Source of the DNA: Cupriavidus sp. U2
GTDB lineage: Bacteria; Pseudomonadota; Gammaproteobacteria; Burkholderiales; Burkholderiaceae
DNA: 64,000 nt
Assembly: GCF_009663685.2 (NCBI RefSeq)
Contig: NZ_RCOG02000004.1
Coordinates: 62,001-126,000, forward strand
Direction: 5' to 3'
This document shows, one piece after another, positions 27,360-31,736 of this stretch (the stretch's first letter is position 1; each line of letters starts with the position of its first letter). A model generated the notes under the pieces. The model searched no databases, was not told the DNA's origin, and worked only from the letters and a program-made list of their open reading frames with translations. The translations under genes and the position numbers were made by a program.

Positions 27360-28163
27360 TCAGGCGGCTTCCTGCAGCGCCGGGTTGCGCTGCTTGCGGT
27401 ACAGGAAGTCCAGCACGGCCGTGCGGCAGGCGTGATAGGTCTTGTCGTCGGCCAGCGCCACGCGGTCGCGCGGTCGCCGGATATCGACGCTGACGATCTC
27501 GCCGATGGTGGCCGCCGGGCCGTTGGTCATCATGACGATGCGGTCAGCCAGCAGCACGGCCTCGTCCACATCGTGCGTGACCATGACGACGGTGCTCTTC
27601 GTACGCGCCACGATCTTGATCAGTTCGTCCTGCAGATGGGCACGGGTCAGCGCATCGAGCGCACCGAACGGCTCGTCCATCAGCAGCACCTTGGGCTGCA
27701 TCGCCAGCGCCCGGGCGATGCCCACGCGCTGCTTCATGCCGCCCGAGATCTCGTGCGGATACTTGCCTTCGGCGTGGGTCAGGCCCACCAGCGCCAGCGT
27801 GTCGTGCGTGCGGGCCTTCAGCTGCGCCTTGCTCTCCGTGGCGCCGAACACGCGCTCCACGCCCAGGTGGACGTTTTCGAAGCACGTCAGCCAGGGCAGC
27901 AGCGAATGGTTCTGGAAGACCACGGCGCGCTCCGGCCCGGGCCCGGCGATCTCGCGCCCGGCGCAGATCAGCGCGCCGGCGGTGGGCGTGGTCAGCCCGG
28001 CGATCAGGTTCAGCAGCGTGGACTTGCCGCAGCCCGAATGCCCGATCAGCGTGATGAACTCGCCTTCCGCAACCGACAGGTTGATGTCGCGCAATGCCAC
28101 AAACGGGCCCTTGCGCGTCTTGAACGTCTGGCCGACGTGTTCGATGCTGACGAATTTTTCCAT
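27360..28163 (-). CDS. Nitrate/sulfonate-type ABC transporter ATP-binding protein
   Basis: The ATPase of a nitrate-type ABC importer, 267 residues. Walker A is GHSGCGKST, the Q-loop region VVFQNHSLLPW, the signature SGGMKQR, Walker B VLLMDEP and the switch histidine lies in VMVTHDVDEAVLLADR. It matches NrtD/NasD of the nitrate-sulfonate-taurine family. It is 13 bases downstream of the permease gene and is controlled from the leader ahead of the binding-protein gene. Confidence 0.9.
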   Translation of the reverse strand: MEKFVSIEHVGQTFKTRKGPFVALRDINLSVAEGEFITLIGHSGCGKSTLLNLIAGLTTPTAGALICAGREIAGPGPERAVVFQNHSLLPWLTCFENVHLGVERVFGATESKAQLKARTHDTLALVGLTHAEGKYPHEISGGMKQRVGIARALAMQPKVLLMDEPFGALDALTRAHLQDELIKIVARTKSTVVMVTHDVDEAVLLADRIVMMTNGPAATIGEIVSVDIRRPRDRVALADDKTYHACRTAVLDFLYRKQRNPALQEAA

Positions 28164-28176
28164 GACGGGGCTCCGA

Positions 28177-29097
28177 TCAGGTGTTGCCGTAGCTGAAGCG
28201 GCGCGCCAGGGCCAGCAGCAGGTGCTCCAGCACCAGGCCGACCACGCCGATGATGAAGATGGCGATGACGATGTGCTCGACCTTCAGGTTGTTCCACTCG
28301 TCCCACAGCCAGAAGCCGATGCCGGTGCCGCCGGTCAACATCTCGGCGGCCACGATCACCAGCCACGCGGTGCCGATGGATAGCCGCACGCCGGTCAGCA
28401 TGTACGGCAGCACGGCCGGGAACAGCACGCTGCGGAAGATCTTCCATTCGGACAGGTCCAGCACGCGCGCCACGTTCAGGTAGTCCTGCGGCACGCGCGT
28501 CACGCCCACCGCCGTGTTGATGATCATCGGCCAGATCGAGCAGATGAAGATGGCCCAGATGGCGGCCGGGTTGGCGGCCTTGAACAGCAGCAGGCCGATG
28601 GGCAGCCAGGCTAGCGGCGACACGGGCCGCAGCAGGCTGATGACCGGCGCCGCCATCGCGTTCAGGAAGGCGAAACGCCCCAGCAGGAAGCCGGCCGGAA
28701 TGCCGATTACCGCCGCCAGGCCGAAGCCCGCCGCCACGCGCGCCAGCGACGCCAGCACGTTCCAGCCGATACCCTGGTCGTTCGGGCCGTTGCGATAGAA
28801 CGGATCGGCAAACAGCGGCACGGCGGCATTCCACGTGGCACCGGGCGTCGGCAATGCCGGGATCAGCGTGGCGATGCCGTGCCAGACCAGCAGGAACAGC
28901 ACGAAGCCGGCCAGCGGCGGCACGCACTTGAGCACGAAGCCGGCTACGGCCTCGCGCCGCGCGGCCTGCTTCGCCTGGATGGCAAGCTCCTGGGCGCGGC
29001 GGCGCGTCTGTTCCTTGGCTTCCGTATCGAGGACATCGGCATCCATGGCGGCTCCTTGCGGAGTAGTGGGGGTAACGGCAGGGGCGAGGGCATTCAC
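28177..29097 (-). CDS. nrtB: Nitrate ABC transporter permease
   Basis: The membrane subunit of the nitrate importer, 306 residues. After a charged N-terminal extension (residues 20-50, Glu/Arg/Gln-rich) it has about six helices and the ABC-coupling loop region ARVLDLSEWKIFRSVLFPAVLPYMLTGVR, matching the NrtB family. It starts 50 bases after the binding-protein gene and is followed by the ATPase. Confidence 0.9.
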   Translation of the reverse strand: MNALAPAVTPTTPQGAAMDADVLDTEAKEQTRRRAQELAIQAKQAARREAVAGFVLKCVPPLAGFVLFLLVWHGIATLIPALPTPGATWNAAVPLFADPFYRNGPNDQGIGWNVLASLARVAAGFGLAAVIGIPAGFLLGRFAFLNAMAAPVISLLRPVSPLAWLPIGLLLFKAANPAAIWAIFICSIWPMIINTAVGVTRVPQDYLNVARVLDLSEWKIFRSVLFPAVLPYMLTGVRLSIGTAWLVIVAAEMLTGGTGIGFWLWDEWNNLKVEHIVIAIFIIGVVGLVLEHLLLALARRFSYGNT

Positions 29098-29147: not shown

Positions 29148-30458
29148 TCAGAGGGCGCCGGCTTTGATCTTGAAGCCGTCGGCGTAGGCCTTCGGGTCCT
29201 TGGCGGCGTCCCAGGTCACGCCGTCGATCAGCTTCGCGGTCCGGAAATCGCTCTTGGGCAGCGGCACCTGCGCGGCGGCGGCGGCCTGCTTGAACACGTC
29301 GATGCGGTTCACCTGCCTGGCCACGGCCAGGTAGTCGGGGTGGTCCTTCAGCAGGCCCCAGCGCTTCTGCTGCGTCAGGAACCACATGCCGTCCGACAGG
29401 AACGGGTAGTTGGCCAGGCCGTCCTGATAGAACTTCATCGAATCGGGGTCGTCCCAGGTCTTGCCCAGGCCGTTGCTGTAGCGGCCCAGCATGCGGTCCA
29501 GGATGATGTCCATGTCGGTGTTGACATAGGACTTGGCCGCGATGGTCTCGGCGGTCTTGCGGCGGTTCGAGGCCGATGCATCGATGAACTTCGATGCTTC
29601 GAGGACGGCCGCCACCATCGCGCGGGCCGTGTTCGGATTTTTCTGGACGAAATCCGATGTGGTGCCCAGCACCTTCTCGGGATGATCCTTCCAGATGGCC
29701 TGGGTGGTTTCGGCCGTGAAGCCGATCTTGTCGGCGATGGCACGCGCGCCCCACGGTTCGCCCACGCAGAAGCCGTCCATGTTGCCCACGCGCATGTTGG
29801 CTACCATCTGCGGCGGCGGCACGGTGATGGCCTTGGCGTCCTGCATCGGGTTGATGCCGTTGGCGGCCAGCCAGTAGTAGAGCCACATCGCATGCGTGCC
29901 GGTGGGGAAGGTCTGCGCGAACACGTACTCGCGCTTTTCGCGGGTCATCAGCGCCTTCAGGCTGGCACCGTCCTTGACGCCCTTTTCCGCCAGCTTCTGC
30001 GACAGCGTGATGGCCTGGCCGTTGTGGTTCAGGTTCATCAGCACCGCCATGTCCTTCCGGGGCCCGCCGATGCCAAGCTGCACGCCGTAGACCAGGCCGT
30101 AGAGCACGTGCGCGGCATCGAGTTCGCCATTGACCAGCTTGTCTCGCACGGCCGCCCACGACGCCTCCTTGCTCGGCGTGATCTTGATGCCGTACTTCTT
30201 GTCCAGGCCCAGCGTCGACGCCATGACCACCGACGCGCAGTCGGTCAGCGGGATGAAGCCGATCCTGACTTCGGCCTTCTCGGGCGCATCGGAGCCGGCT
30301 GCCCAGGCACCGCTGCGCACCAGCGGATCGACCAGCGTCATCACGCTGGCGCCGGCAAGGGTGGCCAGCGCGCGCCGGCGGCCGTGGCTGGCCGGAGCGC
30401 GGTCGGCGGCCGCGTTGTCGGCGACGTTGGGCTTGGCAATCTTGAGGCGAGAGGGCAT
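29148..30458 (-). CDS. nrtA: Nitrate ABC transporter substrate-binding protein with Tat-type signal
   Basis: A 436-residue NrtA/NasF-type nitrate-binding protein. The N-terminus has a GRRRALATLAGASVM stretch resembling a twin-arginine signal with cleavage near residue 54. Family motifs VRIGFIPLTDCASVVMA, NLNHNGQAITLS, GTHAMWLYYWLAANGINP and GFCVGEPWGARAI are present. GGAG lies eight bases before ATG 30458. Immediately upstream are a strong terminator and two hexaloop hairpins, so expression is probably antitermination-controlled by NasT. Confidence 0.92.
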   Translation of the reverse strand: MPSRLKIAKPNVADNAAADRAPASHGRRRALATLAGASVMTLVDPLVRSGAWAAGSDAPEKAEVRIGFIPLTDCASVVMASTLGLDKKYGIKITPSKEASWAAVRDKLVNGELDAAHVLYGLVYGVQLGIGGPRKDMAVLMNLNHNGQAITLSQKLAEKGVKDGASLKALMTREKREYVFAQTFPTGTHAMWLYYWLAANGINPMQDAKAITVPPPQMVANMRVGNMDGFCVGEPWGARAIADKIGFTAETTQAIWKDHPEKVLGTTSDFVQKNPNTARAMVAAVLEASKFIDASASNRRKTAETIAAKSYVNTDMDIILDRMLGRYSNGLGKTWDDPDSMKFYQDGLANYPFLSDGMWFLTQQKRWGLLKDHPDYLAVARQVNRIDVFKQAAAAAQVPLPKSDFRTAKLIDGVTWDAAKDPKAYADGFKIKAGAL

Positions 30459-30476
30459 TGCGATGGCTCCGAGAAG

Positions 30477-30640
30477 AAAAAAGGCGTCCCGACCGCAGCC
30501 CCAGGCTTCAACAGAAGCCGGGAGGTGCGGTGCAGGACGCCGTTGTCCGATGCCGCGCGGGCCGTCGTTGGCGCGCGTGCATGCATGTTGTGGTTGATAC
30601 CGGGCACTACAGGGTGATGCCGGCCGTCGTTGGCCTTGCC
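30477..30640 (-). promoter_or_regulatory. ANTAR-type antitermination leader of the nrtABC operon
   Basis: Read on the minus strand, hairpin P1 is GGCC-AACGAC-GGCC (30635-30622) and hairpin P2 is CGCGC-GCC-AACGAC-GGC-CC-GCGCG (30577-30554). Both have the same six-base loop with A at position 1 and G at position 4, the signature recognised by ANTAR proteins. They are followed by a long terminator whose outer stem is GGCGTCC with GGACGCC (30541 to 30483), then six U at 30482-30477, ending 19 bases before the nrtA start. The linker between hairpins, about 45 bases, is longer than in textbook examples. Confidence 0.8.
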
Positions 30641-30647
30641 AGCCATT

Positions 30648-30664
30648 ACGCAAGCGTCATGCCA
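30648..30664 (-). promoter_or_regulatory. Sigma-54-type promoter of the nrtABC leader
   Basis: The minus strand reads TGGCATGACGCTTGCGT, close to the sigma-54 consensus TGGCAC-N5-TTGCW with the invariant GG-N10-GC spacing. Transcription would start near 30638-30640, just at the base of hairpin P1. Sigma-54 itself is encoded at 55995-57476. Confidence 0.6.
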
Positions 30665-30919
30665 TGCCCGTTGCGGTGCACAACACCGTGCGGCCGGCGG
30701 CGCTTTTCACCAGGCCGAGGCGCCACGCGTGCGGACGGTGCACGCGGGGGCCTGCGGCGCAGGTCCCCGGGAGCGGAAAGTCAGCGCGAAACCGTGCGGG
30801 GAAGGCGGCGGGTGGCGGAACTGGTGCAGCGCCGCGCCCGCGCATGCACCGGGCTGGTGTGGGGGAGGGAAGCGGGAGGAAGGTGTGGCGGAACGTATGG
30901 CGGAAGGTCTGGACAGGCG
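30665..30919. other. Non-coding stretch between nasT and the nrt promoter
   Basis: These 255 bases are GC-rich and hold no convincing gene. An inverted repeat CGGTG-CACAA-CACCG sits at 30675-30689, just upstream of the sigma-54-type promoter, and might be an activator site, but it does not match the NtrC consensus well. Open frames on both strands look like chance. Confidence 0.4.
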
Positions 30920-31555
30920 TCAGCCCATCACGTCGATCACGCGCTGGGCGGCTTCCACGAGCTTGATGCCACGCTCCATCGCCATCGAACGCAGCCGCTT
31001 GTAGGCCTCGTCCTCGGTGATGCCGCGCGACTCCATCAGCAGGCCCTTGGCGCGCTCCACGGTCTTGCGCTCGGCCAGCTTGAGTTTGGTGGCGTCCAGC
31101 TCGGCGCGCAGCTGCTGGTCGAGCTCGAACCGCGCATAGGCCACGTCCAGCACGGTCTTGACGCGCTCGGCGCGCAGGCCGTCGACGATATAGGCCGTGA
31201 TGCCGGCCGACAGCGCGGCCTTGATGCGCTGGGAATCGTCGTTGTCGGTGAACAGCACGATCGGGCGCGGCGCGTGCTGGGTGGACACGCAGACATGCTC
31301 GATGGTGTCGCGGGCGGCCGATTCGGACGCGATGATGACCAGGTCGGGCAGCGTGGCCGCGATCACATCGGGCAGCCGCAGGTCGGCGTCCACGGTCTGC
31401 ACCGTCGTGAAGCCGGCCTGCGCCAATCCGGCGCGGATCGTCTCCACATTGAGCGGATCGGCGTCGTGCGGGTCGCGCACCAGCAGGATGCTCAGGGTGC
31501 GGGAGCCTGCGGCCGGCGGTGGACTGGCAGGTGGGGGCGAGGTGCGGCGGTTCAT
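30920..31555 (-). CDS. nasT: ANTAR-domain antiterminator NasT
   Basis: The 211-residue protein has an N-terminal pseudo-receiver domain (about 20-140) and a C-terminal ANTAR domain (about 155-208: [17 protein letters not shown], then [17 protein letters not shown]). The receiver strand that normally ends in the phosphorylated aspartate reads [10 protein letters not shown], so phosphorylation there is unlikely. NasT binds dual-hexaloop leader RNAs and prevents termination of nitrate assimilation operons; such a leader lies just downstream. NasT is normally held by the nitrate sensor NasS, which is not encoded next to it. ATG 31555 avoids an unlikely N-terminal extension. Confidence 0.92.
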
Positions 31556-31736
31556 GACGGTCGCTTGGTTGCACTGCAATATGCAAGATTCGCGCCGGGG
31601 TTGCCTGCACTGTATGCCACCGTACGCCGGGTGTATGCTTTGCCCCTGCCGCGCCCCCGGTTTCCGCATCGAAACCGGGGCACGCCGAATGCACCGGCGC
31701 GGCGTCCCATCAAAAAGAGAAAGCAGGAGAGTTTGG

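Follow-up and report, generated by a model that had tools for sequence, protein, structure and literature searches.

The DNA analysed here (the window) is a stretch of 64,000 nucleotides from Cupriavidus sp. U2. On its minus strand, between nasT (31558-30920) and the ATG of nrtA at 30458, lies a leader that contains a predicted promoter, three hairpins with six-base loops, and an intrinsic terminator. We number the hairpins P0, P1, and P2 from the 5' end, and we call a six-base loop with A at position 1 and G at position 4 an A1/G4 hexaloop. The features are:

30920 to 31558, minus strand: nasT, ANTAR antiterminator (PF03861; PDB 6wsh, E = 1.1e-15); its start codon is not settled.
30650 to 30664, minus strand: predicted sigma54-type promoter, TGGCATGACGCTTGC, by the GG/GC spacing of its sequence; predicted +1 near 30638.
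30622 to 30635, minus strand: P0, 5'-terminal hexaloop hairpin GGCC-AACGAC-GGCC (54-leader alignment and covariation; called P1 in the preliminary description).
30552 to 30580, minus strand: P1, hexaloop hairpin with loop AACGAC at 30569-30564 and a CC bulge (A1/G4 in most genus leaders, and covariation; called P2 in the preliminary description).
30535 to 30548, minus strand: P2, hexaloop hairpin GGAC-AACGGC-GUCC, which excludes the terminator.
30477 to 30541, minus strand: intrinsic terminator, stem 30541-30483 followed by six U at 30482-30477; -47.5 kcal/mol alone.
29148 to 30458, minus strand: nrtA, nitrate-binding protein, the first gene after the leader (PF13379, E = 4.4e-106; PDB 2g29, NrtA, E = 4.8e-83).
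28177 to 29097, minus strand: nrtB, nitrate ABC transporter permease (TIGR01183, above its cut-off).
27360 to 28163, minus strand: nitrate ABC transporter ATPase of the nrtC/D type (TIGR01184, above its cut-off).

The structure that NasT matches, 6wsh, is EutV (PMC8934654), and nasT was the only ANTAR gene that a search with PF03861 found in the genome. Across the genus, an ANTAR protein is encoded in 59 of 60 genomes, and the exception (G012) is only 54% complete. ANTAR matches (profile positions 2-52) also occur in long open frames, of 456-496 amino acids, in G004, G009, G017, G036, and G057. These proteins may be NasR-like fusions of a sensor to an ANTAR domain. (G004 and G057 lack a match to the nrtA leader and have a narK-type match.)

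ANTAR proteins are described as binding A1/G4 hexaloops in pairs of hairpins, the second of which lies within the base of the terminator (PMC3369931). The linker between the hairpins is 5-12 nt in the eut leaders, where eutP is impaired when it is 3 nt or 14 nt long (PMC3369931), and 2-25 nt in a definition of ANTAR targets as dual stem-loops (PMC8164766). We listed hairpins with a six-base loop, A at position 1, G at position 4, and at least three closing pairs in the 361 bases from 30400 to 30760, and found three on the minus strand, with loops at 30631, 30569, and 30544. Depending on the end chosen for the P1 helix, 3-6 nt separate P1 from P2, which is within the 2-25 nt range and at the edge of the 5-12 nt range; the gap of about 45 nt between P0 and P1 is outside both. 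The 3' half of P2 (GGCGUCC) is the start of the 5' arm of the terminator, so that P2 and the terminator are mutually exclusive, and this overlap, which P1 does not have, is what makes a switch possible. With their short linker, P1 and P2 match the usual dual hexaloop of ANTAR targets. P0 is additional to this pair and lies at the 5' end, directly behind the predicted sigma54-type promoter.

The preliminary description of this DNA had reported two AACGAC hexaloop hairpins about 45 bases apart, a GC-rich terminator with six U that ends 19 bases before nrtA, and an adjoining ANTAR gene. All of these are present (the two loops are at 30631-30626 and 30569-30564). It had missed P2, however, and had therefore paired the wrong hairpins, P0 and P1, as the dual motif; it is P1 and P2 that fit the published geometry.

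Upstream of P0, at 30664-30650, is TGGCATGACGCTTGC, which we take to be a sigma54-type element because it agrees with the sigma54 consensus (GG and GC doublets at -24 and -12, with a fixed spacing). If this promoter is used, transcription would begin near 30638, just before P0 and not downstream of the hairpins, and P0 would extend from about +4 to +17. A TGCACCGC box lies just upstream of the sigma54 element, near 30680 in the window. In a search for NtrC-like boxes, run without a control, 23 of 54 leaders from the genus had a TGCACCGC box, which started 14-16 bases ahead of the promoter element.

When the RNA is folded from the predicted +1, the minimum free energy (MFE) structure (-81.1 kcal/mol) holds P0, P1, and the terminator. 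Forcing P2 to form gives -69.9 kcal/mol, at a cost of 11 kcal/mol relative to the terminator fold. P0, P1, and the terminator are also in the MFE structure of 30680-30440 (z = -3.47; 0 of 200 shuffles were as low). Positions 30650-30476 fold at -84.1 kcal/mol (z = -3.73, again with 0 of 200 shuffles as low) into a structure with P1 and the terminator and without P0, because P0 is paired there with bases that precede the predicted +1. Much of the leader's excess over shuffled sequences is supplied by the terminator alone. The plus strand also folds (z = -2.89); we assign the element to the minus strand because of the gene order and the polarity of the terminator.

These folds bear on the pairing that had been proposed originally, in which P0 and P1 form the dual motif across a 45-nt linker and neither overlaps the terminator. 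Both hairpins are in two of the three MFE structures (P1 alone is in that of 30650-30476), and they have the same loop. However, eut linkers are 5-12 nt, and 14 nt is already too long for full function (PMC3369931), while P2 fits the published geometry. Furthermore, P0 and P1 lie outside the terminator, which could still form if only these two hairpins were bound. We consider this pairing very unlikely.

We found the leader by DNA similarity in 54 of 60 genomes of the genus, including Cupriavidus sp. U2. The six genomes without a match are the incomplete G012 and G004, G020, G033, G057, and G031; a match to the narK family was found in G004, G020, G033, and G057, and G031 is not among the genomes listed for that search. 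(Additional short DNA matches in G019, G024, and G025, L056-L058, were taken as chance: L056 and L057 contain no A1/G4 hexaloop, and the one in L058 is far from the match.) All 54 leaders have the promoter element (TGGCA[CT]N5TTGC), P0 with an AACGNN loop, and P2 with a terminator, and 51 have the A1/G4 hexaloop of P1, which is missing from L011, L022, and L054. The last two letters of the P0 loop are GC in 24 leaders, AC in 20, AG in 7, AA in 2, and CT in 1, and the 51 P1 loops have fourteen different sequences. The terminator overlaps P2 in 54 of 54 leaders, as compared to a mean of 8.3 and a maximum of 13 when the sequence after P2 is shuffled. The position of P0, as an index from the promoter, is nearly fixed (33 in 45 leaders, 34 in 4, 32 in 3, and 36 in 2), and the distance between the loops of P1 and P2 is 24-27 nt; the distance between P0 and P2 ranges from 59 to 100 nt. 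Two rigid modules thus emerge, promoter-P0 and P1-P2-terminator, which are joined by a highly variable linker.

The stems of P0 and P1 also covary. Among 26 distinct rows, 4 of the 7 pairs of P0 are changed on both sides, which 2 of 500 shuffles reach, and the covariation score is 0.177 versus 0.082 (0 of 500 shuffles reach it); the number of pair types, by comparison, is reached by 117 of 500. For P1 and P2, we used an alignment of 28 of the 54 leaders, without L011 and L022 (which have lost P1), from which we also built a search model. Here, 4 of the 7 pairs of P1 are changed on both sides; 0 of 500 shuffles reach the covariation score, and 40 of 500 reach the count of two-sided changes. Because the relatives are not independent, none of the shuffle figures in this analysis is a p-value. 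The four pairs of P2 are invariant in the 28-leader alignment, so covariation says nothing about P2.

The preliminary description would have been refuted by a lack of conservation of its two loops among close relatives, and these comparisons show that both are conserved. Its suggestion that the leader is a structural variant also holds, but the reason is the three hexaloops and not the long linker or the CC bulge that it had named: the bulge is real in this leader but is not conserved, as the stem is without it in L004 and L005, which are close relatives. As for the idea that these are chance hairpins, GC-rich DNA such as this readily yields short stems, but given the conservation, the covariation, and the shuffle controls, we regard this as almost inconceivable.

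Beyond the genus, we searched 220 genomes of the order for a pattern made of the promoter and P2 letters, without any letters from P0 or P1. This gave 19 sites in 18 genomes, including a second site in Cupriavidus sp. U2 (on contig C22) and some close pairs; a backward control pattern gave 1 match. An A1/G4 hexaloop with at least 4 pairs was present in the first zone, where P0 would be, in 17 of the 19 sites (composition shuffles: mean 0.42, maximum 3, in 500 rounds) and in the middle zone in 10 of 19 (mean 0.71, maximum 5). Both were present in 8 of 19, which therefore have all three hexaloops with P2. At two sites, L245 and L246, there is an A1/G4 hexaloop in the middle but not at the 5' end; by eye, their 5' hairpin seems to be a plain one.

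These results can be set against the proposal that P0 has nothing to do with NasT and acts as a stem at the 5' end, either shielding the mRNA or aiding promoter escape. 5'-terminal stems generally slow mRNA decay, and P0 is pinned to the predicted +1. However, protection requires no particular loop, yet positions 1-4 of the P0 loop are AACG in 54 of 54 leaders while positions 5-6 vary, and the A1/G4 hexaloop recurs in 17 of the 19 order-wide sites. We think that this explanation of P0 is distinctly improbable.

We also scanned all of the genomes with a long-spacing pattern that includes promoter, P0, and P2 letters, which matched at least 120 stretches. The matches listed contain 128 sites, of which 6 were dropped by stem limits, and the remaining 122 were not thinned for relatedness. 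Because the P0 loop letters are fixed by the pattern, these sites inform us about the middle hairpin, the stems, the terminators, and the genes. Among the matches listed are sites from Cupriavidus, Ralstonia, Pandoraea, Paraburkholderia, Massilia, Rhodoferax, Xanthomonas, Chromobacterium, and Sulfuricella. In 120 of the 122 listed sites, P2 is overlapped by the terminator (shuffled mean 23.5, maximum 37). A middle A1/G4 hexaloop is present in 47 of 122 (dinucleotide shuffles: mean 3.9, maximum 9, in 200 rounds), and other pairs of loop letters occur in the middle 0-8 times each. The other 75 of the 122 listed leaders have no middle A1/G4 hexaloop of at least 4 pairs, so three hexaloops are not required. 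Class-wide patterns matched in just 2 of 369 genomes each (for the long-spacing pattern, this includes Cupriavidus sp. U2), which is too sparse for a rate. The 28-leader model had matches at E ≤ 0.01 in 127 of 200 family genomes, but many of these were weak and were not counted as leaders.

We grouped the genes that follow the 122 listed sites by similarity and named the groups from samples (one representative each for NirB, SUMT, PilJ, and NrtA). The next gene encodes an MFS protein at 46 sites (22 with three hexaloops), NrtA at 28 (21), NirB at 25 (1), SUMT at 7 (0), and a PilJ-domain protein at 6 (1); it is of another kind or unclear at 5 sites, and none was found at 5. Seven of the 46 MFS proteins were sampled, and the best match of each was to the NarK family, below the curated cut-off of that family. 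The PilJ-domain proteins, one of which was checked, lie behind the NasT-type leaders L113, L123, L134, L198, L199, and L203; this is possibly another nitrate-responsive gene.

Three architectures can be distinguished: two hexaloops, the first of them near the 5' end; a 5' hexaloop, another kind of middle, and P2; and three hexaloops. The two-hexaloop type was found, among the matches listed, in nine g24 genomes, one of which has two such leaders. Cupriavidus sp. U2 itself uses two architectures, as the nrtA leader has three hexaloops and the leader on contig C22 has no middle A1/G4 hexaloop. This second NasT-type leader (L232; C22:27961-27856, minus strand) lies ahead of a gene for a NarK-like MFS transporter. 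The best weak matches of the 28-leader model in this genome score about 21 bits and the C22 site scores 17.9 bits; we retained the site despite this score because the sigma54 pattern matched there.

The main rival to our assignment pairs P2 with P0 and makes P1 a mere spacer, a hairpin that brings the two closer together and has kept its hexaloop by chance. The loops of P0 and P2 are present in all 54 genus leaders and P1 has lost A1/G4 in three of them. Similarly, narK-type and nirB leaders often have P0, no middle A1/G4 hexaloop, and P2, and so does the second target in Cupriavidus sp. U2. On the other hand, P1 keeps A1/G4 in 51 of 54 leaders through fourteen loop sequences, its stem covaries, it is at a nearly constant distance from P2 (24-27 nt versus 59-100 nt for P0), and middle A1/G4 hexaloops are in clear excess over shuffles (47 versus 3.9 in the listed sites). 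Overall, a P0-P2 pair with P1 as a spacer seems unlikely.

NasT is reported to bind the nasA leader once nitrate frees it from NasS (PMC3795266). We found no NasS-like protein in Cupriavidus sp. U2 by a search for homologues of NrtA or by a search with PF13379: the next best match to NrtA scored 21.5 bits, and the next PF13379 protein scored 92 bits versus 356 for NrtA. The only close homologue of NrtA or NasS found in the genome is thus NrtA itself, encoded in this operon; by eye, its N-terminus resembles a twin-arginine export signal. In other taxa (L131 and L127), a NasS-like protein is encoded on the same stretch as nasT (315-349 bits against the NrtA of Cupriavidus sp. U2), and by eye these proteins have no signal peptide. 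NasT of Cupriavidus sp. U2 seems to be without NasS.

That an ANTAR (NasT) antitermination leader precedes nrtA, as originally proposed, is well supported at the level of sequence, because the adjoining ANTAR gene is the only one found and because the combination of hexaloops, a terminator, and nitrate genes is seen repeatedly. The original observation is partly confirmed and its interpretation partly supported. We propose that the leader is probably a nitrate-responsive NasT antitermination switch with three hexaloops, in which P0 is an extra 5' docking hairpin. Transcription would start from the sigma54 promoter near 30638. By default, the long terminator would swallow P2 and RNA polymerase would halt before nrtA. 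Nitrate-activated NasT would bind the hexaloops of the nascent RNA and keep P2 folded, so that the terminator could not form and the nrt operon would be transcribed. P0 might catch NasT as the RNA emerges, raising its local concentration; alternatively, P0 might pass NasT to P1 and then to P2.

Several observations count against this proposal. Some of the covariation measures are reached by many shuffles (117 of 500 for P0 and 40 of 500 for P1-P2), P0 is lost in one of the folds, L245 and L246 lack the 5' hexaloop, and the g24 leaders have just two hexaloops. P2 can be forced to form only at a cost of 11 kcal/mol, and our searches of this genome found no NasS-like protein. Two reported systems also argue against it. 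In Bradyrhizobium, NasT hairpins are predicted in the leaders of narK and bjgb, but narK-bjgb-flp goes up when nasT is mutated (PMC6759348), so predicted NasT hairpins are no guarantee of activation. In Paracoccus, only one of the two leader hairpins is reported to matter strongly for induction (PMC5424462).

More tentatively, and with somewhat less than even confidence, we suggest that sigma54-driven NasT leaders begin as a class with a hexaloop at about +8, and that in many Burkholderiales and some other proteobacteria this hexaloop is a rung of a three-hexaloop relay. NasT would be loaded at the 5' end, near the promoter, and would then move on to P1 and from there to P2 in the terminator, which would couple the promoter type, the 5' end of the RNA, and antitermination. 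A question raised recently is what an ANTAR dimer does with two hexaloops when it cannot hold both together (PMC8934654), and a natural third hexaloop that is fixed at the predicted 5' end, with a variable linker, makes this question approachable through changes in single loops.

In Rfam searches of the window, only a tRNA scored above its gathering threshold, and we took weak matches to mir-H3, CRISPR-DR20, BcKCsr2, and HIV-1_DIS as chance. The narK RNA family (RF03032) scored 21.8 bits, below its gathering threshold of 43.2, and P11 (RF00625) scored 20.5 bits, below its threshold of 70; RF03032 was above its gathering threshold in 0 of 200 family genomes. The consensus of both families contains a GGCAC..UGC element and two hairpins, one with the loop AACGNN and the other, an ACGAC- or GGAC-hairpin, with the loop AAAGNC. 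RF03032 and RF00625 look like NasT dual-hexaloop leaders with a sigma54 promoter, and promoter DNA seems to be part of these RNA models. Three-hexaloop leaders would suggest that the two Rfam families are NasT leaders including their promoter, and would widen the definition used in searches for ANTAR targets (two hairpins with a linker of 2-25 nt; PMC8164766).

The switch itself is already of a known kind, and what sets this leader apart is the third hexaloop. The published definitions of ANTAR targets that we examined are dual only, and we found no three-hexaloop ANTAR leader in the open-licence PMC literature, which does not by itself establish absence from print. The consensus of RF03032 and RF00625 shows two hexaloops, as compared to three here. 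Like the eut, nasF, and amiE leaders as they are described in PMC3369931, this leader has two A1/G4 hexaloops with a short linker, and the second hairpin is embedded in the 5' base of the terminator; unlike them, it has a third hexaloop at the predicted 5' end, a variable linker, and an adjacent sigma54-type promoter. It shares NasT, nitrate genes, leader hairpins, and control by read-through with the Paracoccus nasA and Bradyrhizobium leaders (PMC5424462, PMC3795266, PMC6759348), but in Paracoccus the leader is described with hairpins HI and HII, and NasT has NasS as its partner, whereas here there are three hexaloops and our searches found no NasS-like protein. Finally, as reported for EutV, the dimer contacts hexaloops singly, P1 and then P2, and the minimal site is one hexaloop (PMC8934654). 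Our proposal likewise involves single-hexaloop sites that are bound in succession during transcription, but in contrast to the two hexaloops of the EutV system, the nrtA leader would be a natural three-step version.
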